Source of the DNA: Bacteroidota bacterium
GTDB taxonomy: Bacteria > Bacteroidota > Bacteroidia > Chitinophagales > Chitinophagaceae
Reading direction: 5' to 3'
Assembly (NCBI GenBank): GCA_947458915.1
Contig: CANHAE010000008.1
Span: 1-37,537 of the forward strand
Length of the DNA stretch: 37,537 nt
Both the position numbers and the translations under genes were made by a program. This document shows, piece after piece, positions 4,796-35,368 of this stretch (positions are counted from its first letter, which is position 1; each line of letters opens with the position of its first letter). Below the pieces are notes generated by a model that worked only from the letters and a program-made list of their open reading frames with translations, did no database searches and was not told where the DNA came from.

Positions 4796-7240
4796 TTGTC
4801 AACAAGTATTGAAAATATAGCAAGTATTGTAGCGACCGAATCAAAATTGGTTAAGCAAGCAAGTATTGCCTATTTATTAATGGATAGTAGAAAGCTAGCG
4901 TTTCCAAGCGCTACTTTGTTTTTTGCAATCACAACTGCCAATCAGGATGGGCATGTGTATATAAAAGAATTAGTGCAAAAAGGGGTTTACAATTTTGTAG
5001 TGCAGGACCATTTTGATACAAGCAGCTATTCACAAGTTAACTTTATAGTAGTAAGTGATGTAGTGGAAGCGCTTCAAAAAATTGCCGCAATGCATCGCGC
5101 ACAATTTCACTCACCAGTGGTTGGTATAACAGGAAGTAATGGTAAAACAATTGTAAAGGAATGGTTAGCACAGTTACTCGCGCCACATTTTAATATTGTT
5201 AGGAGTCCGAGAAGTTATAATTCTCAAATTGGTGTTCCCCTTAGTGTATGGGAAATGTCTACACAACATAATTTTGCAATCTTTGAAGCCGGTATTTCTC
5301 AAAAAGGAGAAATGGAGGCACTGGCAAATGTAATACAGCCAACAATTGGCATCCTTACAAATATTGGGACGGCGCATGAAGCCGGTTTTGTTTCGGCTAA
5401 AGAAAAGCTTTCCGAAAAATGTATATTATTTCAAAAGGCATCAACAATTATTGTCCCTCATAACCTAATGCAGGATGTGCCTAATGTTACAGGTCAGAAA
5501 ATGATTACATGGGGGTATGACCCATTAGCAACCTTATTTATGGAGCAGGTGATAATCAATAATGGTCAGGTTGAATTAACGGGCATTTTCAATAAAGGCA
5601 CAAAAAAATTAATTGCTCCATTTGTTGATAAAATAGCAATTGAAAATATAATTATTTGCTGGGCAGTACTATTGCATTTAGGTATTGACGAAGTGGCCAT
5701 TCAAGATGGCGTCCTTCAATTACGTCATTTGGAAATGCGTATGCAAATAAGAAAGGCGCAAAATAGTTGCTATTTACTAAACGACAGTTATAGTAACGAC
5801 CTTTCTTCCTTGGCGCTTGCATTAGATTATGCAAAACAGCAAGCGGGTAATTTGCCCATTACTTTAATTTTATCTGATTTCACAAATAGTCCCGCTGCTA
5901 GTTTAGTTAAAGTGGTTGAACTTTTAGTTGCATATCCTATTGGCAAGCTTATTACTATTGGGCCTAATTTGTCGGGATTATTTGTACAAGAAAATCCGAT
6001 GCGTGAACAAGGTTGTGCAATTTACTGTTATAATAGTACTAAGGAATATTTATCATCTTTTGAAGTAGCTGATTTTAAAGATGAATTTATAGTACTGAAA
6101 GGAGCAAGGAAATTTGAGTTTGAAAAAATAAACGCCTTATTACAATTGCAAGTGCATCAAACCCGGCTAGAAGTGAATTTAACTTCGTTGGTTAATAATT
6201 TTAAATACATCAGGCAATTAACTGGACCGCAAGTAAAGTTAATGGCAATGGTTAAGGCCTTTGGCTATGGAAGTGGAAGTATTGAAGTGGCAAGGGTGCT
6301 GCAATTTCATCACGCCGATTATTTGGCGGTTGCCTATGCCGACGAAGGCATCGAGTTACGCAAGGCGGGAATTCGCTTGCCCATTATGGTTATGAATGTG
6401 GATGCTGCTGCTTTTGATGCAATTGTGCAATTTCACCTTGAGCCGGAAATATTTTCGGTAGGGTTATTAAACGAGTTCCAGAAATTTATTCAATCACAAG
6501 CCTTGCATAATTTCCCAATTCATTTAAAATTAAACACGGGAATGAATCGACTAGGGTTTGACATGGATCAAATTAACATTGTTCGCGACCTATTAAAGCA
6601 ACAAAGCGATTTAAAAGTACAATCTATTTTTAGTCACTTAAGTGCTAGTGGGCAAACTAATTTTGCCTCATTTACTAACGAACAGTTGACTATTTTTAAG
6701 CAAGCCGCTGAGCGGATAGAACAAGGATTAGGCTACCCTGTTATTAAACATATTGCTAATTCTGGTGCCATTTCAATGGAAAAAAAGTTCCATTTAAGTA
6801 TGGTTCGATTAGGGATAGGCCTGTACGGAATAGGGGAAGGTAAATTAGAAACAGTAGTCCAATTTTATACTACTATAGCTCAAATACGAAAAGTGGCAGC
6901 AACTGAAACCGTGGGTTATAATAGGTCAGGTAAACTGAATAGGGATAGTATAATAGCAACTGTAAGGCTTGGGTACGCCGATGGCTATAGTAGAAAGCTA
7001 GGTCGCAGCAAAGGCAGTATGTGGGTTAAAGGCAAGCTAGCCCCTGTTGTTGGAGACATATGCATGGATATGACCATGATTGACATTACAGACATTGCAG
7101 GTGTACAAGAAGGGGATGATGTGGAGGTATTTGGCAGTCATTTGACAATTGAACAAGTGGCCAATTGGGCCGAAACCATTCCTTATGAAATTTTAACATC
7201 AATTGGGCAAAGAGTAAAGCGTGTGTATATCCAAGACTAA
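4796..7240 (+). CDS. murF-alr: Bifunctional UDP-MurNAc-tripeptide:D-Ala-D-Ala ligase / alanine racemase
   Basis: An 814-residue fusion of two cytoplasmic peptidoglycan enzymes. The first half (about 1-450) is MurF, which adds D-Ala-D-Ala to the UDP-muramyl tripeptide. It has the ATP-binding GITGSNGKT near residue 112 and a divergent NDSYSNDLSSL in place of the usual DSYNANP. The second half (about 455-814) is a PLP alanine racemase that makes D-Ala from L-Ala. PLP lysine is Lys487 in MVKAFGYGSG, followed by VRLGIGLYGIG, GYADGYSRKLG and VGDICMDMTMID. This fusion is characteristic of Bacteroidota. The start is a TTG; the next in-frame ATG (MDSRKLAF) would cut into the MurF N-domain. No ddl is adjacent. 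Confidence 0.95.
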   Translation: MSTSIENIASIVATESKLVKQASIAYLLMDSRKLAFPSATLFFAITTANQDGHVYIKELVQKGVYNFVVQDHFDTSSYSQVNFIVVSDVVEALQKIAAMHRAQFHSPVVGITGSNGKTIVKEWLAQLLAPHFNIVRSPRSYNSQIGVPLSVWEMSTQHNFAIFEAGISQKGEMEALANVIQPTIGILTNIGTAHEAGFVSAKEKLSEKCILFQKASTIIVPHNLMQDVPNVTGQKMITWGYDPLATLFMEQVIINNGQVELTGIFNKGTKKLIAPFVDKIAIENIIICWAVLLHLGIDEVAIQDGVLQLRHLEMRMQIRKAQNSCYLLNDSYSNDLSSLALALDYAKQQAGNLPITLILSDFTNSPAASLVKVVELLVAYPIGKLITIGPNLSGLFVQENPMREQGCAIYCYNSTKEYLSSFEVADFKDEFIVLKGARKFEFEKINALLQLQVHQTRLEVNLTSLVNNFKYIRQLTGPQVKLMAMVKAFGYGSGSIEVARVLQFHHADYLAVAYADEGIELRKAGIRLPIMVMNVDAAAFDAIVQFHLEPEIFSVGLLNEFQKFIQSQALHNFPIHLKLNTGMNRLGFDMDQINIVRDLLKQQSDLKVQSIFSHLSASGQTNFASFTNEQLTIFKQAAERIEQGLGYPVIKHIANSGAISMEKKFHLSMVRLGIGLYGIGEGKLETVVQFYTTIAQIRKVAATETVGYNRSGKLNRDSIIATVRLGYADGYSRKLGRSKGSMWVKGKLAPVVGDICMDMTMIDITDIAGVQEGDDVEVFGSHLTIEQVANWAETIPYEILTSIGQRVKRVYIQD

Positions 7241-7242
7241 CT

Positions 7243-7250
7243 TATCTTTG
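7243..7250 (+). promoter_or_regulatory. -7 promoter motif upstream of lspA
   Basis: TATCTTTG is an exact match to TAnnTTTG. It starts 2 bp after the murF-alr stop and lies 21 nt before the chosen lspA ATG. It suggests that lspA can be transcribed on its own. Confidence 0.5.
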
Positions 7251-7271
7251 TGTTCCATTTTAATAATAAGT

Positions 7272-7925
7272 ATGAACGGGAAAAAAGTAGCAGCATTTAT
7301 TTTATTGATCATTTTTTTAGACCAAGCCATTAAGTTTTATATTAAACTTAATTATTTTATTGGGGAAGAACATATGCTGTTTGGAACCTGGGGTCGACTA
7401 CACTTTGTAGAAAATGAAGGAATGGCCTGGGGATTAAAATTTGGCGGAGGTTTAGGTAAAATTGCTTTAACCTTATTTCGCTTAATTGCTGTTATTTGGG
7501 GAACCTTCTTAATAAAAGGGTTTATTGAAAAGAAATACCATAATGGTTTTATTATGTGCGCTGCTTTAATTTATGCAGGGGCAATTGGAAATTTAATTGA
7601 CAGTATATTTTACGGGGTAATTTTTGACGCTAGTGTTCCATACACTACTATGGTTGCAAGTTTATTACCAGCAGAGGGAGGCTATTCCAGTTTATTACAT
7701 GGAAAAGTGGTTGACATGTTTTATTTCCCTATTATTACCAATGCCCATTTTCCTAGTTGGGTACCTTATTGGGGTGGGGAAGAATTTGAGTTCTTTCGCC
7801 CAGTTTTTAATTTTGCCGATATGGCAATTAGTACAGGGGTGATTGCGCTTTTTGTATTTCAGAACAAGTTTTTCAGCGATTCTAATGAAAAAACGGCCGA
7901 AAAGGTCGAAAATACAAATATATAA
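7272..7925 (+). CDS. lspA: Lipoprotein signal peptidase (signal peptidase II)
   Basis: A 217-residue membrane aspartic protease that removes signal peptides from prolipoproteins after lipid attachment. Conserved elements are the TM1 Asp (FLDQAIK), FVENEGMAWG (counterpart of FNxGAAFG), GNLIDSIFYG with the first catalytic Asp, VVDMFYFP, and FNFADMAIS with the second. The Arg that usually follows the first catalytic Asp is Ser, and there is an insertion of about 35 residues between the two catalytic regions. As far as I recall both are usual in Bacteroidota LspA, which is longer than the 160-residue enterobacterial enzyme. The track's upstream GTG start would add 17 residues overlapping murF-alr; the ATG at 7272 is preferred. 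Confidence 0.92.
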   Translation: MNGKKVAAFILLIIFLDQAIKFYIKLNYFIGEEHMLFGTWGRLHFVENEGMAWGLKFGGGLGKIALTLFRLIAVIWGTFLIKGFIEKKYHNGFIMCAALIYAGAIGNLIDSIFYGVIFDASVPYTTMVASLLPAEGGYSSLLHGKVVDMFYFPIITNAHFPSWVPYWGGEEFEFFRPVFNFADMAISTGVIALFVFQNKFFSDSNEKTAEKVENTNI

Positions 7926-7975: not shown

Positions 7976-10900
7976 ATGAGCAATCAATACCCCGAATTTA
8001 ATGGACTACATCTGCCTACTATTGAGGCAGAAATATTAGCCGCTTGGAAAAAAGAACAAGCATTTGAACAATCAGTGAGTTTACGTGAAGGCAAAAAGCC
8101 ATTTGTGTTTTTTGAAGGTCCGCCAAGTGCTAATGGGATGCCTGGTATACACCATGTTATTTCAAGAACATTAAAGGATATGGTGTGCCGATATAAAACA
8201 ATGCAAGGTTTTCAGGTTAAAAGAAAAGGTGGATGGGATACCCATGGCTTGCCAGTTGAGTTGGGTGTTGAAAAAGAATTAGGTATCACAAAAGAGGACA
8301 TCGGGAAAAAAATTAGTGTAGAAGAATATAATAAGAAATGTAGAGAAGCGGTATTGCGTTATAAAAAAGAATGGGATGATATTACCAATAAGATGGGATA
8401 CTGGGTTGATTTAAATAACCCTTACATCACCTTCGAAAATAATTACATTGAAACACTTTGGTGGATATTAAGTACGCTTTATAAAAAAGGGTATTTGTAT
8501 CAAAGTGTTAGTATACAACCTTATTCTCCAGCTGCAGGAACGGGATTAAGTTCACACGAATTAAATCAGCCGGGCACTTACAAGGATGTAAAAGACACTT
8601 CGGTAGTTGCCATGTTTAAGGCGATTCATTCTCCAGAAAGTCAATTTATTTTTGATGCAGCTGCTGCAAATGAAAAAAGCAAAGAAGTGTATTATATGGC
8701 GTGGACAACCACTCCATGGACTTTGCCTTCTAACCTTGGGTTAACAGTAGGCCCCAATATTGAGTATGCTTTAGTAGCAACATATAACCCTTACACAGCA
8801 TTGCCGGTAAATGTAATTATAGCAAATGCCTTAATAGCTAAATATTTTAAAGAAGAAGGACAAGGCTTGGATAGTTTTGCAGAAGGGGATAAATTAATTC
8901 CTTGGAAAATAATCGGATCATTTAAGGGTGCTGAATTAAACGGGTTACGTTACGAACAGCTAATGCCTTTTGAGTCGAATGATCCTAAAAATATTGAAGG
9001 CGATCCTTTTAAAATAATTCTTGGCGATTTTGTTACTACTGAAGACGGTACTGGTATAGTGCATACCTCGCCAGCCTTTGGCGCAGATGACTATAAGGTA
9101 GGACAAAAAAATAATTTAGGAATTATAACATTAGTGGACCGTGAAGGAAAATTTGTGGAAGGTGTTGGAGAATTTAGCGGTCGCTATGTAAAAAATTATA
9201 AGGACGAGCAAGATTTTCAAGACGTGAACGTTGATATTTCAGTGAAATTGAAAAAAGAAAATCGCGCATTTAAGGTGGAGAAATATGAACATAATTATCC
9301 GCATTGTTGGAGAACAGATAAGCCAATATTATATTATCCATTAGACGCTTGGTTTATAAAAACTACAGCAGTGAAGGATCGAATGGTAGCATTAAACAAA
9401 ACTATTAACTGGAAACCTAAGAGTACTGGGGAAGGACGTTTTGGCAATTGGTTGGAAAATATGGTGGATTGGAATTTGTCGAGAAGCAGGTATTGGGGAA
9501 CCCCATTGCCAATATGGAGAACAATCGATGGAACAGAAGAAGTTTGTATTGGTTCTATTGAAGAATTAACGCAAGGTTTTTTAGCAGCAAAAGAAAAAGG
9601 GTTTAACAAGGAAGTTTCATTAACAATAAAGGACGGGAAGTTAGATGTTGATTTGCACAAACCATTTGTGGATCAAATTGAATTATTAAGTGCGACTGGT
9701 AAACCTATGTATCGTGTTTCAGATTTGGTGGATGTGTGGTTTGATTCAGGTGCAATGCCATATGCGCAATGGCATTATCCATTTGAGCATAAAGATTTTA
9801 TTGATAAAGGACAAGCCTTTCCTGCAGATTTTATTTGCGAGGGCGTGGACCAGACTCGCGGATGGTTTTATACTTTACATACTTTGGGTGTTATGCTATT
9901 TGATAGTGTAGCCTATAAAGCAGTAATGAGCAATGGTTTAGTATTAGACAAGAACGGCAATAAAATGAGTAAGCGTTTGGGGAATGTAGTGAATCCATTT
10001 GAAACGCTACAAACTTATGGAGCCGACGCAACACGTTGGTATTTGGTTACGAATGCTTCGCCTTGGGATAATTTAAAATTTGATTTATCGGGTATACAAG
10101 AAGTGCAAAGAAAATTCTTTGGCACCTTATATAATACGTATCAGTTTTTTGTATTGTATTCAAATGTAGATGGATTTAAATTTGAACAAACTTATATTCC
10201 AGTTAATCAAAGACCAGAAATTGATCGTTGGATTATTTCTTCTTTAAATAGTTTAACACAAACTGTTACAACAGCAATGGACGACTTCGAACCCACTGTT
10301 GCTGGAAGGGCTATTGAAACTTTTGTGGACGAGCATTTAAGTAATTGGTATGTGCGTTTATGTCGTAGGCGTTTTTGGAAAGGAACGTATACCGATGATA
10401 AAATTAGCGCCTATCAAACTTTGTATGAGTGTTTAGAAACAATCACAAGGCTAATGGCGCCAATTGCACCGTTCTTTTGTGATCAAGTGTATCGTAATTT
10501 AAATGGAGTGACAAATCGTTTTAACGCAACTTCAATACATCATTTAGATTTTCCAATTGCAGATGCATCAAAAATGGATGTTGCTTTGGAGGCGCGCATG
10601 CAAATGGCGCAAGACATTTGTTCCTTAGTTTTATCTATACGAAAAAAAGTAAATATTAAGGTCCGTCAACCATTACAAAAAATATTAATACCCGTTTTAG
10701 ATCCTGCTACTAAATCAGCCATTGAATTAATGGAAGAATTAATTTTGGCAGAAGTTAATGTTAAAGAAATTAATTATATAACCGAAACGGAAGGGGTCAT
10801 TAGTAAAAAGCTAAAACCAAATTTCAAATTATTAGGAGCTAAGCTTGGCACTAAGATGAAAGAAGCCTCTGCCGCTATTGCAGCGCTTAATCAAGCACAA

Positions 10901-11326
10901 ATTAGTCAGTTAGAAAAAGAAGGCGTATTAGATTTAGTGATTGAAGGTTTATCTATTCCATTGTTAATCAGTGAAGTAGATATTATTGCTGAAGATATCC
11001 CAGGTTGGAGTGTAGCTGTGAAGAACGGCTTAACCGTTGCCTTAGACATTAGTTTAAGCCCTGCCTTATTACAAGAGGGAAATGCAAGAGAATTGGTAAA
11101 TAGGGTCCAAAACATCCGAAAAGAGGCCAATTTTGAGCTTACAGACAAGATTTTACTCCGAATTGTGGATAACACCGAACTGAAGGACTCCATTAATAAA
11201 TTTTCAGACTATATTTGCCGCGAAATACTGGCATTGGAGATTGACTGGGTTTCTTCCCTAGAGGAAGGGGTGGATGTCGAAATTAATGACCAAAAATTAA
11301 GGATTTCAGTTTTACAAAAAGGATAA
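7976..11326 (+). CDS. ileS: Isoleucyl-tRNA synthetase, eukaryote-like type (IleS2) with GxHH motif
   Basis: A 1116-residue class I aminoacyl-tRNA synthetase that charges tRNA-Ile in the cytoplasm. The order is: catalytic domain with GPPSANGMPGIHHV near residue 47, GWDTHGLPVE, an editing domain (about 200-420, with AWTTTPWTLPSNLG), DVWFDSGAMPYAQWHYP, the KMSKR loop at 663-667, then anticodon-binding and C-terminal domains. The KMSKR version and the length fit the second, eukaryote-like IleS clade. The canonical HIGH is replaced by Gly57-Ile-His-His60, the swapped GxHH form. Neighbouring lspA and the DksA-like gene lie 50 and 7 bp away; in many bacteria lspA and ileS are also linked. Confidence 0.97.
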   Translation: MSNQYPEFNGLHLPTIEAEILAAWKKEQAFEQSVSLREGKKPFVFFEGPPSANGMPGIHHVISRTLKDMVCRYKTMQGFQVKRKGGWDTHGLPVELGVEKELGITKEDIGKKISVEEYNKKCREAVLRYKKEWDDITNKMGYWVDLNNPYITFENNYIETLWWILSTLYKKGYLYQSVSIQPYSPAAGTGLSSHELNQPGTYKDVKDTSVVAMFKAIHSPESQFIFDAAAANEKSKEVYYMAWTTTPWTLPSNLGLTVGPNIEYALVATYNPYTALPVNVIIANALIAKYFKEEGQGLDSFAEGDKLIPWKIIGSFKGAELNGLRYEQLMPFESNDPKNIEGDPFKIILGDFVTTEDGTGIVHTSPAFGADDYKVGQKNNLGIITLVDREGKFVEGVGEFSGRYVKNYKDEQDFQDVNVDISVKLKKENRAFKVEKYEHNYPHCWRTDKPILYYPLDAWFIKTTAVKDRMVALNKTINWKPKSTGEGRFGNWLENMVDWNLSRSRYWGTPLPIWRTIDGTEEVCIGSIEELTQGFLAAKEKGFNKEVSLTIKDGKLDVDLHKPFVDQIELLSATGKPMYRVSDLVDVWFDSGAMPYAQWHYPFEHKDFIDKGQAFPADFICEGVDQTRGWFYTLHTLGVMLFDSVAYKAVMSNGLVLDKNGNKMSKRLGNVVNPFETLQTYGADATRWYLVTNASPWDNLKFDLSGIQEVQRKFFGTLYNTYQFFVLYSNVDGFKFEQTYIPVNQRPEIDRWIISSLNSLTQTVTTAMDDFEPTVAGRAIETFVDEHLSNWYVRLCRRRFWKGTYTDDKISAYQTLYECLETITRLMAPIAPFFCDQVYRNLNGVTNRFNATSIHHLDFPIADASKMDVALEARMQMAQDICSLVLSIRKKVNIKVRQPLQKILIPVLDPATKSAIELMEELILAEVNVKEINYITETEGVISKKLKPNFKLLGAKLGTKMKEASAAIAALNQAQISQLEKEGVLDLVIEGLSIPLLISEVDIIAEDIPGWSVAVKNGLTVALDISLSPALLQEGNARELVNRVQNIRKEANFELTDKILLRIVDNTELKDSINKFSDYICREILALEIDWVSSLEEGVDVEINDQKLRISVLQKG

Positions 11327-11333
11327 TTTTATT

Positions 11334-12401
11334 ATGGCTACAAAAAAAACAGCTCCTAAAAAAGCCGCACCTGCAAAAAAGGCAGCTCCTGCAAAAAAAG
11401 CAGCGCCTGCAAAAAAAGCAGCGCCTGCAAAAAAGGCGGCACCAGCTAAAAAAGCAGTTCCTGTAAAAAAAGCAGCACCAGCTAAAAAAGCGGCACCTGT
11501 AAAAAAAGCAGCACCAGCTAAAAAAGCGGCACCAGCAAAAAAAGCAGTTCCTACAAAAAAACCAGTACCAGCTCCTAAAAAAGTGGTTCCTGTAAAAAAA
11601 GCTGCACCAGCTAAAAAAGCGGCACCAGCTAAAAAAGTAGTGACACCTGCAAAAGCTGTTCCTGCAAAAAAAGCATCAGTGCCTGTTAAAAAAAATGTAG
11701 CCCCAACAAAACCTGTTGCAAAAACAGCTCCTGTTAAAGCAGCTCCAGCTAAAAAAACAGTTACTCCAGCAAAGCCTGTCTTAAAGACATTGCCAAGTAA
11801 GCCTGTTCCAGTTGTGAAGCCTGTTGAAAAATATGTGCCTCCTGCTAAGCCTGTACCAAAAATACCTACGCCTCCAGTAAAGCCAGTGCGTAAAATAGCA
11901 GAACCAATTAAAGATGTAAAAGTTCCTAAAATCAATAGTAAAAGCAGCGTACCTTATCAACCAGGGTATGTGCCAATGGAAAAAAGAAAAGAAGTAGAAA
12001 GGTCTACTGAAACTTTGGTTAAATATTCTGACGCCGAATTAACCGAGTTTAGAGATTTAATTGCTAAGAAATTAGATGCTGCTAAAAAGGAATTGGTATA
12101 CTTACAAGGATTAATAACGCGCAAAGACGAAATGGGTGGTGATAACGATGACGCCCGCTACATGACAATGGAGGATGGTAGCGTGAGTATGGAAAGAGAG
12201 CAATTAGGCCAAATGGCTAGTCGTCAAATTACTTTCATTGACCATTTAGAAAAAGCCTTAATGCGTATTGAAAATAAAACTTATGGTATTTGTAGAGTAA
12301 CGGGCCGTTTAATAGACAAAGCACGTTTACGCGCTGTTCCACATGCCACTTTAAGCCTAGAAGCAAAATTAGGATATGTAAAGAATAGCAGTGAGCAATA
12401 G
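11334..12401 (+). CDS. DksA/TraR-like protein with a long Lys/Ala/Pro-rich N-terminal tail
   Basis: A 355-residue protein in two parts. Residues 1 to about 200 are low-complexity and very basic, built from AAPAKK-type hexads that resemble histone H1 tails. Residues about 225-350 are a DksA/TraR-like domain: a coiled-coil-like helical stretch, then YGICRVTGRLIDKARLRAVPHATLS. Only one of the four zinc-finger cysteines is left. DksA proteins bind the RNA polymerase secondary channel and tune transcription, often with ppGpp. The tail may bind DNA, RNA or polyphosphate, which is inference. The coding repeat is A-rich, with many runs of 6-7 A. The gene starts 7 bp after ileS and is likely co-transcribed. 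Close Bacteroidota homologues of the C-terminal domain also tend to lack the full zinc finger. Confidence 0.85.
   Translation: MATKKTAPKKAAPAKKAAPAKKAAPAKKAAPAKKAAPAKKAVPVKKAAPAKKAAPVKKAAPAKKAAPAKKAVPTKKPVPAPKKVVPVKKAAPAKKAAPAKKVVTPAKAVPAKKASVPVKKNVAPTKPVAKTAPVKAAPAKKTVTPAKPVLKTLPSKPVPVVKPVEKYVPPAKPVPKIPTPPVKPVRKIAEPIKDVKVPKINSKSSVPYQPGYVPMEKRKEVERSTETLVKYSDAELTEFRDLIAKKLDAAKKELVYLQGLITRKDEMGGDNDDARYMTMEDGSVSMEREQLGQMASRQITFIDHLEKALMRIENKTYGICRVTGRLIDKARLRAVPHATLSLEAKLGYVKNSSEQ
11364..11636 (+). repeat. 18-bp tandem coding repeat (AAPAKK hexads)
   Basis: About fifteen copies of an 18-bp unit such as GCAGCGCCTGCAAAAAAA encode residues 11-101 of the DksA-like protein. Five perfect protein-level copies come first. 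Later copies vary (AVPVKK, AAPVKK, AVPTKK), and one 7-residue unit (PVPAPKK) breaks the register. A looser, more proline-rich version goes on to about residue 195. Confidence 0.95.
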
Positions 12402-30641: not shown

Positions 30642-32780
30642 TTAAGCAATAGTACTACCCGCTGCGATTGCTTCGCTTGGGCTTACAAAGTATAATTTTC
30701 CAGCAGCATCTTCTGCCATTAGTATCATTCCTTTGCTTTCAATACCGCGCATTTTTCTTGGCGCAAGGTTCGCAACAATTGTCACTTGTTTGCCCACTAT
30801 ATCTTCGGGTTTAAAATGCATTGCAATGCCAGACAGTATGGTCCTTTGCTCAAACCCTAAGTCTACTAATAGTTCAAGTAGTTTATCCGCTTTCTCTACT
30901 TTCTTCGCTTCTATAATGGTGCCAACTCGTAAATCAATTTTCCCAAAATCATCAAATACGATTTCAGGTTTTAATTCATTTTTTGTTCCTTCTTTATCGG
31001 CTCCAGTTGGAGTTGTTACAGGGGTGGTTTCCATGTTTATTTTTTTTGCAGCAGCGTTTGCGCTTAGCTGTGTTAATTCCGCTTCAATTTCTGCGTCTTC
31101 AATTTTTCTAAATAGTAATTCAGGAGGGCGTAAGGTATAGCCTACTTTTAATAAGTTAAACTCGCCTGCATTTTCCCACTCTAACATCTTAGGCACCACT
31201 TTCATAAGGTGACACATTTTTTGAGCGGTAAATGGCAAGAATGGGTTAATTAAAATAGCAAGGTTTGCAGATAGTTGCAAACAGCCATGCATACAATTAT
31301 CAATCTTAGCTTGCGCCGTAGGGTCGGTATCAATATTTTTTGCTAAAATCCAAGGCTCTTTCTTTTGCATGTACTGGTTACCAATACGCGCTAAATTAAT
31401 GACTTCAAATTGAGCTTCTCTAAATTTATACAACTCCAGTAACCCAGTAATTTTCTCTTTCGCATCTTTCACTGTTAGCAACAAAGCGTGGTCCTCGTCA
31501 TCTAAATATTCAGGATGAATTTTAGGTACTTTGCTATTGCATAATTTATGCATCAACACCCAAGTTCTGTTTACAAAGTTGGCGAATATGCTTACTAATT
31601 CACCATTCACCGATTCTTGAAAACCTTTCCAAGTAAATTCACTATCCTTTGATTCAGGGGCAATAGCAGTTAAATAAAAACGTAAACTATCTGCTAGTCC
31701 GGTTCCTCCATTCTCTGGTTTAATCCATTTATTGATGTAGTCATCCATTTCGATACTCCAACCTCTTGAAGTACTCATCTTGTCTCCCTCTAAATTCATA
31801 AACTCATTGGCAGGCACATTTTCTGGTAAAATATTCCCATGCAATTTTAACATCACAGGAAAAATAATACAATGAAAAACAATATTGTCTTTTCCAATAA
31901 AGTGCACCAGCTTAGTTTCAGGATCGTTCCAATAAGGTTTCCAGTCCTTATTGTTATTAATAGCCCATTGTTTAGTTGCACTAATATATCCAATAGGTGC
32001 ATCAAACCAAACATATAAAACCTTGCCGTCTCCTCCTGCCACAGGTACTTTAACGCCCCAGTCTAAATCACGTGTAACTGCTCTAGGCTGCAAACCACCT
32101 TCAATCCAGCTTTTACACTGACCTATTACAGCCGGTCTCCAATCGTTTGCGTGTTCTGCTAAAATCCATTTGCGTAAAAAATCTTCATGTCTATTTAATG
32201 GAAGGTACCAATGCGTGGTCTCCTTTTTAATAGGAGCATTGCCACTTAAGGTACTTACCGGATTTATTAATTCCTCAGGGCTCAAACTCTTGCCACATTT
32301 TTCACATTGGTCTCCGTAGGCTTCTGAATGTCCACAGTTAGGACAAGTGCCCTTAATATAACGGTCGGCTAAAAAAGTATTAGCGGCTTCGTCAAAGTAT
32401 TGTTCCGATGTTTTAGTTTCCAAATCACCTTTCGCTTCTAGGTCCTTAAAAAATTCGCTTGCAGTTTCGTGGTGTAAAGGATCGCTTGTGCGATGATAAA
32501 TATCAAATCCGATTCCAAGGTCCTTAAAATTCTGTTCTATAATTGGATGGTACTTGTCAATAATAGCTTGTGCAGTAGTGCCTTCCTTTGTTGCTTGAAT
32601 TGGAATGGCAGTGCCATGCTCGTCACTACCGCAAACAAATACCACGTCTCTTTTTTGAGCCTTTAAATAACGTGCATATATGTCGGCAGGTAAATAAGCG
32701 CCTGCTAGGTGACCAATATGTTTAAGCCCATTAGCATAAGGAAGGGCTGCAGTAATCAAATATCTTTTTGGCGTGTTCAT
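30642..32780 (-). CDS. metG: Methionyl-tRNA synthetase with C-terminal tRNA-binding domain
   Basis: A 712-residue class I synthetase that charges tRNA-Met. It shows the HIGH region ALPYANGLKHIGHLAGAYLP, a zinc knuckle of C-x2-C-x9-C-x2-C type (CPNCG, CEKCG), the KMSTS loop in GDKMSTSRGWS, an anticodon domain, and an EMAP/Trbp111-like tRNA-binding domain at the end (DLRVGTIIEAKKVEKADKL). The track start is 45 codons too early and would overlap the divergent LD-carboxypeptidase; MNTPKRYLITAALPYANG is the normal N-terminus. An exact -7 motif ends 5 nt before this ATG. The family length with this extra domain is about 680-720, which fits. Confidence 0.97.
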   Translation of the reverse strand: MNTPKRYLITAALPYANGLKHIGHLAGAYLPADIYARYLKAQKRDVVFVCGSDEHGTAIPIQATKEGTTAQAIIDKYHPIIEQNFKDLGIGFDIYHRTSDPLHHETASEFFKDLEAKGDLETKTSEQYFDEAANTFLADRYIKGTCPNCGHSEAYGDQCEKCGKSLSPEELINPVSTLSGNAPIKKETTHWYLPLNRHEDFLRKWILAEHANDWRPAVIGQCKSWIEGGLQPRAVTRDLDWGVKVPVAGGDGKVLYVWFDAPIGYISATKQWAINNNKDWKPYWNDPETKLVHFIGKDNIVFHCIIFPVMLKLHGNILPENVPANEFMNLEGDKMSTSRGWSIEMDDYINKWIKPENGGTGLADSLRFYLTAIAPESKDSEFTWKGFQESVNGELVSIFANFVNRTWVLMHKLCNSKVPKIHPEYLDDEDHALLLTVKDAKEKITGLLELYKFREAQFEVINLARIGNQYMQKKEPWILAKNIDTDPTAQAKIDNCMHGCLQLSANLAILINPFLPFTAQKMCHLMKVVPKMLEWENAGEFNLLKVGYTLRPPELLFRKIEDAEIEAELTQLSANAAAKKINMETTPVTTPTGADKEGTKNELKPEIVFDDFGKIDLRVGTIIEAKKVEKADKLLELLVDLGFEQRTILSGIAMHFKPEDIVGKQVTIVANLAPRKMRGIESKGMILMAEDAAGKLYFVSPSEAIAAGSTIA

Positions 32781-32785
32781 TCCTG

Positions 32786-32793
32786 CAAAAGTA
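32786..32793 (-). promoter_or_regulatory. -7 promoter motif upstream of metG
   Basis: On the minus strand this reads TACTTTTG, an exact TAnnTTTG match, with a TTG 20 nt further upstream in a good -33 position. That -33 element would lie inside the first codons of the divergent gene. The motif is 5 nt from the metG ATG, so the mRNA may be leaderless. Confidence 0.55.
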
Positions 32794-32807
32794 CTTAATA
32801 TTGTGGT

Positions 32808-33710
32808 ATGATTCAACCTCCAAACCTGAAGCCCGGAGACACTATTGGGATAGTTTGCCCCGCCGGCGCAATTGATATAAAAATTGTCCAAAATTGTATG
32901 AAAACACTCCAGCAATGGGGGTACAAAGTGCTTTTAGGAGCTACGGTGGAAGCAAAACATCATTCCTTTGCGGGAACGGATAGCGAAAGGGCGGCAGACT
33001 TGCAAAAAATGCTCAACGACCCTTCCATAAATGCCATTTTATGCGGCAGGGGTGGATACGGGGTAAGTAGAATTATTAATGAATTGGACTTTAGCTTATT
33101 CAATAAGCATCCTAAATGGGTTGTAGGCTTTAGTGATATAACCGTATTACATGCGGCAATTCAAAAGCAAAATTGTATGAGTATTCACGGCCCCATGGCA
33201 GCCGCATTTGGCAAAGGGTTAGAAGGAGAAATTTTCACTGATTCCTTAAAAGCCTTGTTGGAAGGGCGAAATATGGAATTAGCGGCTAAACCACATGCGT
33301 TAAATACGCAAGGTAAGGCGGTTGGTATTTTAATTGGAGGGAACCTTTGTTTAGTGGCCCATTTAGTAGGTTCAAAATATGCATTTGACACTAAAGGGAA
33401 AATATTGTTCCTAGAAGACGTAGGTGAATACCACTACAATTTAGACAGGTTAATGATACAAATAAAAAATGCAGGCTTGCTGGAGGACTTGACAGGGCTA
33501 GTTGTTGGAGGTTTTACCGACATGAAGGACAATTCAACCGATTTTGGAGCGACTGCATTTGAAATTATAGCGGCGCACACTGCGGAATATGCTTATCCAA
33601 TTTGTTTCAATTTTCCTATAAGCCATGGATTGAATAATTTTGCTGTAAAAGAAGGAGGCATGTGTGAGTTGAAAATTAATAATGACTTAGTTACTTTAAA
33701 AGAAGTTTAA
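32808..33710 (+). CDS. LD-carboxypeptidase (peptidase family S66)
   Basis: A 300-residue S66 serine peptidase, LdcA-like, that removes the terminal D-Ala from muropeptide tetrapeptides during peptidoglycan recycling. The N-terminal LKPGDTIGIVCPAGAI, the RGGYG motif and the Ser nucleophile in VGFSDITVLH are visible. The acidic member of the triad is in LFLEDVGEYHYNLDR and the His in ISHGLNNFAV. There is no signal peptide, which agrees with a cytoplasmic recycling enzyme. MccF-like self-immunity proteins belong to the same family and are a less likely alternative. The ATG lies only 27 bp from the divergent metG start. Confidence 0.92.
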   Translation: MIQPPNLKPGDTIGIVCPAGAIDIKIVQNCMKTLQQWGYKVLLGATVEAKHHSFAGTDSERAADLQKMLNDPSINAILCGRGGYGVSRIINELDFSLFNKHPKWVVGFSDITVLHAAIQKQNCMSIHGPMAAAFGKGLEGEIFTDSLKALLEGRNMELAAKPHALNTQGKAVGILIGGNLCLVAHLVGSKYAFDTKGKILFLEDVGEYHYNLDRLMIQIKNAGLLEDLTGLVVGGFTDMKDNSTDFGATAFEIIAAHTAEYAYPICFNFPISHGLNNFAVKEGGMCELKINNDLVTLKEV

Positions 33711-33758: not shown

Positions 33759-33766
33759 TAAATTTG
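33759..33766 (+). promoter_or_regulatory. -7 promoter motif upstream of the secreted protein gene
   Basis: TAAATTTG is an exact TAnnTTTG match, 18 nt before the preferred ATG at 33785. It overlaps the TTG start of the ORF track, which argues against that start. Confidence 0.5.
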
Positions 33767-33784
33767 AATATAAATCCGAATCAT

Positions 33785-35368
33785 ATGCAAAAGTCTTTTT
33801 TTAGTACCCTGATGGCATTACTACTTAGCATGCAGTTTTCTATGGCCCAATCCTATGTGGTTTCTGGGATTGAGAAAACCGACAAAGAGGGTATGCAGTA
33901 TGAAGTTTTAGGAAAAGTTGCAAACCATTATTGGATTTTTAAAAAGAATGGTGCCAACGCCACTATAGCACAGTATAATGAGCAAATGCAACTTGTAAAA
34001 CAAAACGACCTTTCTTTTTTACCTGCCTCAATGAGTAGTATTGAATTTGTGGCTTATCCAAACAAAGTAATTGCTTTGTTTCAATATCAAATTAAATCAA
34101 CTGTTTACGCAGCATTCGCTGAATTGAATAGGGAAGGGCAATTAGTAGCTGAGCCAAGAATAATTGACACCGTTGAAAAAATTCGTCCTGGCAGTGCCGC
34201 AAAAGTTTTTAATTTACTAATAAGCGAGGACCATCAAAAAATTTCTTTATTTACAGTAAATACAACGCAAGCGTCAGCTATTAAGGTAAAAGTGATTTCG
34301 CTAAATTCGAATTTTGAAAATATTAATGAGGCGTCAATTAGTATTAACTCGAATAATAAAAAAAGCAACTTATCTGATTTTGCAATTGACAATACTGGGA
34401 ACTTGTTGTGTTTAAGAAATACAAAACAAGAAGGTTCAGCGCCTGCTGTGAGTTTATTGTACTTGTCAGCTAATGGAACTGAGGTGATAGAATCCCAAAT
34501 TATAAATAATACTTTGTTATTAGATGACATAAGGTTAAAAATTGACAATAAGTTGGGACACGTAATTCTTAATTCCTTTTATGCTACTTCTAAAAAAGGC
34601 AATGTAGAAGGCCTGTATTCTTATGTTTGGGACTTAGGTGCGAAAAAAGAATTGGCAACTACTGCTAATCGATTTACGGACGCAATAAAAGCTGCAGTAT
34701 CTAGCAAAAGAAATTTAAAAGATGCGTTTGACGAATTTTACTTTGATAAAATTATTACCCAAGCAGATGGTAGTTTTGTAGTGGTTGCAGAAGCTGCTTC
34801 TTCTTTTTCAAACAGAACCGCTTTTTCAAGATGGGATTATTTTTGGGGAGGGCCATTTTATAATCCTTTTATGTTTAATTATTGGAATAGGCCTTTTGGT
34901 TTTTACCCTTGGACTAGATTTGGTTTTGGATTTGGCATGAGTCCTTGGTCATTTGGTTGGGGCGCTTGGATGAACCCTTATGCGTCATTTGGCTACCCTT
35001 CTATAACCTATAAAGCGAATAAAGTAGCGCTAATAGCTATGGATGTGAAAGGCAATGTTACTGGTATAAAAACAATTGATAAAGTGCAGTCCGATGAAAA
35101 TGTAGATGAGTTTATTGGATATGGCACCATTGATAATACTAAAGGAACTAGTTTTGTTTATTATAAAAAACAATCGGGTATCCGTCAATTGGTATTGAAT
35201 ACTTTAACAAAAGAAGGAACCTTGGCTAAAGGAAGCGCCATTATTTTACAGGAAAAGAGATATGAGTGGATGCCTCGTATGTTAAAGCAAGTTGGAGAAA
35301 ATGAAGCCATATTGCCTTATCAATACAAAGACAAAATTGGCTTTGCAAAAATTAAAATAAATAATTAA
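33785..35368 (+). CDS. Secreted protein of unknown function with an aromatic/Gly-rich segment
   Basis: I do not recognise this 527-residue protein. The ATG at 33785 gives a clear Sec signal peptide (MQKSFFSTLMALLLSMQFSMAQ, likely cut after AMAQ or MA), so it is exported to the periplasm or beyond. Residues of the mature part form repeated beta-strand-like stretches (VVSGIEKTDKEG, IAQYNEQMQLV, VEGLYSYVWDLG), as in beta-propeller-like proteins, but this is only a guess. Near residues 350-410 is a segment very rich in Trp, Tyr, Phe, Gly and Pro. The following gene starts 2 bp after the stop, so the two are likely co-expressed. Confidence 0.75.
   Translation: MQKSFFSTLMALLLSMQFSMAQSYVVSGIEKTDKEGMQYEVLGKVANHYWIFKKNGANATIAQYNEQMQLVKQNDLSFLPASMSSIEFVAYPNKVIALFQYQIKSTVYAAFAELNREGQLVAEPRIIDTVEKIRPGSAAKVFNLLISEDHQKISLFTVNTTQASAIKVKVISLNSNFENINEASISINSNNKKSNLSDFAIDNTGNLLCLRNTKQEGSAPAVSLLYLSANGTEVIESQIINNTLLLDDIRLKIDNKLGHVILNSFYATSKKGNVEGLYSYVWDLGAKKELATTANRFTDAIKAAVSSKRNLKDAFDEFYFDKIITQADGSFVVVAEAASSFSNRTAFSRWDYFWGGPFYNPFMFNYWNRPFGFYPWTRFGFGFGMSPWSFGWGAWMNPYASFGYPSITYKANKVALIAMDVKGNVTGIKTIDKVQSDENVDEFIGYGTIDNTKGTSFVYYKKQSGIRQLVLNTLTKEGTLAKGSAIILQEKRYEWMPRMLKQVGENEAILPYQYKDKIGFAKIKINN

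Follow-up and report, generated by a model that had tools for sequence, protein, structure and literature searches.

A GIHH form of the class I HIGH signature in a type 2 isoleucyl-tRNA synthetase from a Chitinophagaceae bacterium, and the occurrence of GxHH across the Bacteroidota

Introduction

Few catalytic motifs in biology are as conserved as the class I HIGH signature, and a swap within it is striking. The closest described systems are type 2 isoleucyl-tRNA synthetases (IleRS2) such as those of Streptomyces griseus and Deinococcus radiodurans, in which positions 1 and 3 of HxGH are exchanged (PMC10485003). Brkic et al. (2023) found this G/AxHH form in 86 IleRS2 sequences and in no IleRS1, and their mutagenesis in both directions showed that the swap increases the Ki for mupirocin by as much as ∼1000-fold, with millimolar values for the natural enzymes (PMC10485003). 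DrIleRS2 from D. radiodurans carries a natural ALHH and its mupirocin Ki drops from 6.6 mM to 8.1 µM when the motif is HVGH; the HVGH to GVHH change raises the Ki from 0.20 to 35 µM in TtIleRS2 and from 1.08 to 460 µM in PmIleRS2, a rise of ∼200- to 430-fold (PMC10485003). A Ki of 10 mM has been given for SgIleRS (PMC4861432). Crystal structures revealed a shifted motif helix in IleRS2, which lets the third His occupy the catalytic position without disturbing adenine; in the published model, the third-position His clashes with mupirocin (PMC10485003). Our literature search found only Brkic et al. (2023) on the GxHH motif and no work linking IleRS2 and mupirocin to Bacteroidetes. The main text of PMC10485003 contains no word starting with "Bacteroid", although sequences from this group are probably present in the tree of that paper. 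Variant and mupirocin effect were both described in 2023, and the GIHH IleRS2 reported here is an ordinary member of that variant; what we add is the apparent invariance of the swap across a sample of the phylum.

Gene, protein, and class assignment of ileS

The stretch of DNA analyzed here (the window) is 37,537 nt long, and its ileS gene lies at 7976-11326 on the forward strand. Translation gave 1116 aa including EGPPSANGMPGIHHVISR, with GIHH at residues 57-60 (8144-8155, forward strand) inside EGPPSANGMPGIHHVISRTLKD and the second class I signature, KMSKR, at residues 663-667 (9962-9976, forward strand), as the initial annotation had numbered them. That annotation had also described the rest of the enzyme as intact, which agrees with its full length and with the profile searches: the whole protein scored 1015.5 bits against the IleRS model TIGR00392 (cut-off 621.4), and Pfam detected the class I core, the anticodon-binding domain, and a C-terminal DUF5915 (PF00133, PF08264, and PF19302). 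The ValRS, MupA, and MupB models were each scored below their cut-offs.

On sequence hallmarks and bit scores, the assignment of the product to the eukaryote-like type 2, proposed earlier, holds. HYPFE, a hallmark of eukaryote-like IleRS2 (PMC4861432), is found at residues 600-604 (9773-9787, forward strand). IleRS2 enzymes lack the IleRS1 signatures Tyr59, NKIL, and SSL (E. coli numbering) as well as the C-terminal Cys4 cluster (PMC4861432). In the alignment with E. coli IleRS these signatures are replaced in the ileS product (Y by S, NKIL by SRTL, and SSL by TLH), and the Cys4 zinc cluster is absent, a single Cys (1081) being present beyond residue 882. Bit scores to IleRS2 chains in the PDB were 825 (Pm), 731 (Tt), and 642 (cytoplasmic eukaryotic), vs. 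331 (Pm) and 319 (Sa) for IleRS1 chains.

Alignment of the motif and comparison with known systems

In ungapped alignments to PDB chains, GIHH falls on HVGH of the P. megaterium and T. thermophilus IleRS2s, and it occupies the position of HIGH in E. coli IleRS. No alternative HxGH in the right context was found in the alignments to solved and reference IleRSs; since the ungapped alignments set GIHH on HVGH or HIGH, there is no true HxGH elsewhere in the protein. The reading of the motif as HxGH with its first and third positions exchanged is correct.

GIHH has a G in the first and an H in the third position of HxGH and so conforms to the G-hydrophobic-H-H form. The ileS product differs from the S. 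griseus and D. radiodurans enzymes in coming from another phylum and in having KMSKR rather than KMSKS. Its best sequence match in the PDB is the GVHH mutant of Priestia megaterium IleRS2 (8c8w, 825 bits), with which the motif aligns residue for residue and ungapped; that mutant is engineered and shows a reduced kcat and a raised KM, whereas the motif of the ileS product is natural. Staphylococcal MupA (NF000257) is likewise of IleRS2 type, with a near full-length match at 38% identity. The ileS product is not a MupA, because it reached 803.4 bits against a cut-off of 1900 for that model. MupA is an acquired plasmid gene, whereas ileS here is a housekeeping gene of chromosomal type.

Predicted mupirocin insensitivity

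The initial annotation cited a reported GxHH IleS2 with extreme mupirocin resistance and inferred that this strain is naturally insensitive. Such enzymes are on record, with mutagenesis in both directions (PMC10485003), and every sequence-level precondition of the published mechanism that we tested was found in the ileS product. By analogy, the predicted insensitivity is well founded, since Brkic et al. (2023) showed that G/AxHH raises the Ki. Positions 1 and 3 of HxGH are exchanged as in the described form, and by the published mechanism the third-position His would, owing to the shifted motif helix of IleRS2, assume the catalytic place usually held by the first; isoleucine activation should therefore be nearly normal. 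The same His would clash with mupirocin and may bring the Ki to roughly millimolar. The earlier claim, made for this strain, is better extended to the phylum, given the distribution of the motif (below); the swap predicts target-level mupirocin insensitivity for bacteria of the phylum.

Distribution across the phylum and reason for the swap

We searched an even sample of the phylum, 248 genomes from 122 genera. An initial degenerate pattern that required Ala-Asn after GPPx left 88 of the 248 genomes unmatched. Loci read from 28 of these carry GPPTVNG followed by GxHH, which ruled out another motif in those 28, and the corrected pattern matched a GxHH IleRS in all 248 genomes. The HxGH IleRS pattern, which recovered E. 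coli ileS as a positive control, was found in none of them. At ∼90% identity, the named relatives comprise assemblies of Sediminibacterium and of other Chitinophagaceae.

GIHH is paired with KMSKR in all same-order relatives read. We considered and rejected co-variation of KMSKR with GxHH: in other classes of the phylum, most of the GxHH relatives sampled have KMSKS, so KMSKR is a separate and narrower variant. A mobile hyper-resistance ileS on Bacteroidota "plasmid" records was also considered and rejected, as the two records inspected resemble chromosomal segments. NZ_OY725923.1 (Bacteroides finegoldii) and NZ_CP081938.1 (Riemerella anatipestifer) contain ileS-dksA-lspA together with other housekeeping genes, and these records, labeled as plasmids, may be mislabeled chromosomal segments.

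The swap is probably a fixed feature of the phylum that was inherited from its ancestor. We consider it likely that the phylum (Bacteroidota in the broad sense) owes its GxHH IleRS2 to a single fixation in its ancestor, with neither a reversion nor the addition of an IleRS1 since then. If so, intrinsic target-level mupirocin hyper-resistance would be a phylum-wide trait, and a single ancestral fixation would speak against a cause in recent selection by antibiotics. Overall, we are highly confident that ileS encodes the housekeeping, and probably the sole, IleRS of this bacterium, a working enzyme of the G/AxHH IleRS2 form whose swap was vertically inherited and is fixed across the sampled phylum; it would not be a recent adaptation of the strain.

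Why the swap arose is a separate matter. It could be an ancient change that was neutral or selected for some other reason, with mupirocin hyper-resistance as a by-product, and the invariance of the motif over 122 genera does not resemble an answer to an antibiotic made locally by Pseudomonas. However, the published authors prefer environmental antibiotic selection (PMC10485003), and sequences do not separate the two; we give the by-product origin a substantial chance, somewhat short of even. It is about the reason for the swap, not the identity of the enzyme, and is compatible with a working, vertically inherited GxHH IleRS2.

Copy number and authenticity of the swap

The genome is a metagenome-assembled genome of a Chitinophagaceae bacterium near Sediminibacterium (1.9 Mb, 125 contigs, ∼83% complete). 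The initial annotation had asked whether a second ileS exists: the search of this assembly, from which a further copy could be missing, yielded no second IleRS, and two single-contig genomes of the same genus have one IleRS each. The remaining IleRS-like matches in the genome are all canonical, namely a ValRS-like HMGH, a LeuRS-like HVGH, and the HIGH of MetRS (30642-32915 of the window). With HxGH retained in the genome's ValRS, LeuRS, and MetRS, the swap is specific to IleRS. A weak IleRS-like match of 27.9 bits was located in a 414-residue frame on contig C23. In a 2.0-Mb genome of the same family (G155), two GIHH IleRS pattern matches with differing codons were found on contigs C1 and C10, reflecting either a duplicated ileS or contamination.

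These results bear on a reading in which the swap damages catalysis and the ileS product is a degenerate or non-canonical paralogue, the housekeeping role being held by another IleRS. The identical swap does abolish activity in IleRS1, but natural GxHH and AxHH IleRS2s are active (PMC10485003). Moreover, the genome yielded no other IleRS, an HxGH IleRS is missing from the whole phylum sample, and this full-length enzyme has intact domains and is conserved phylum-wide. We regard such a paralogue as very improbable; ileS is probably the sole, housekeeping IleRS gene of this bacterium.

A sequencing or assembly error has a negligible probability, as identical residues recur in independent assemblies with many codon spellings. 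GIHH is present in every same-genus and same-order relative read, and the motif is written in 44 codon spellings among 164 fetched copies (some loci overlap). These shared residues and spellings, together with the GxHH match in every sampled genome, leave neither chance nor sequencing error as the source, and the swapped HIGH motif is confirmed as genuine.

Neighboring genes

The signal peptidase II gene lspA (7221-7925, forward strand; PF01252) is directly upstream of ileS. Upstream of lspA, the ORF at 4796-7240 (forward strand) combines a Mur ligase middle domain with a complete alanine racemase, an apparent MurF-Alr-type fusion. The 534-residue ORF at 33764-35368 (forward strand) gave no Pfam match.

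Directly downstream of ileS is a TraR/DksA-type zinc-finger gene (11334-12401, forward strand; PF01258). Its zinc finger is reduced, YGICRVTGRLIDKARLRAVPHATLS retaining one of the usual four Cys, and its product has a histone H1-like N-terminal extension of ∼210 residues, rich in Lys, Ala, Pro, and Val. The extension could serve a DksA-like factor as a tail that binds DNA or RNA. It is present in nearly all fetched Chitinophagaceae, mostly with ∼255-457 aa in total; in Flavobacterium, Bacteroides, Riemerella, and several other families of the order, the TraR/DksA-type protein is 125-136 aa long and has no extension.
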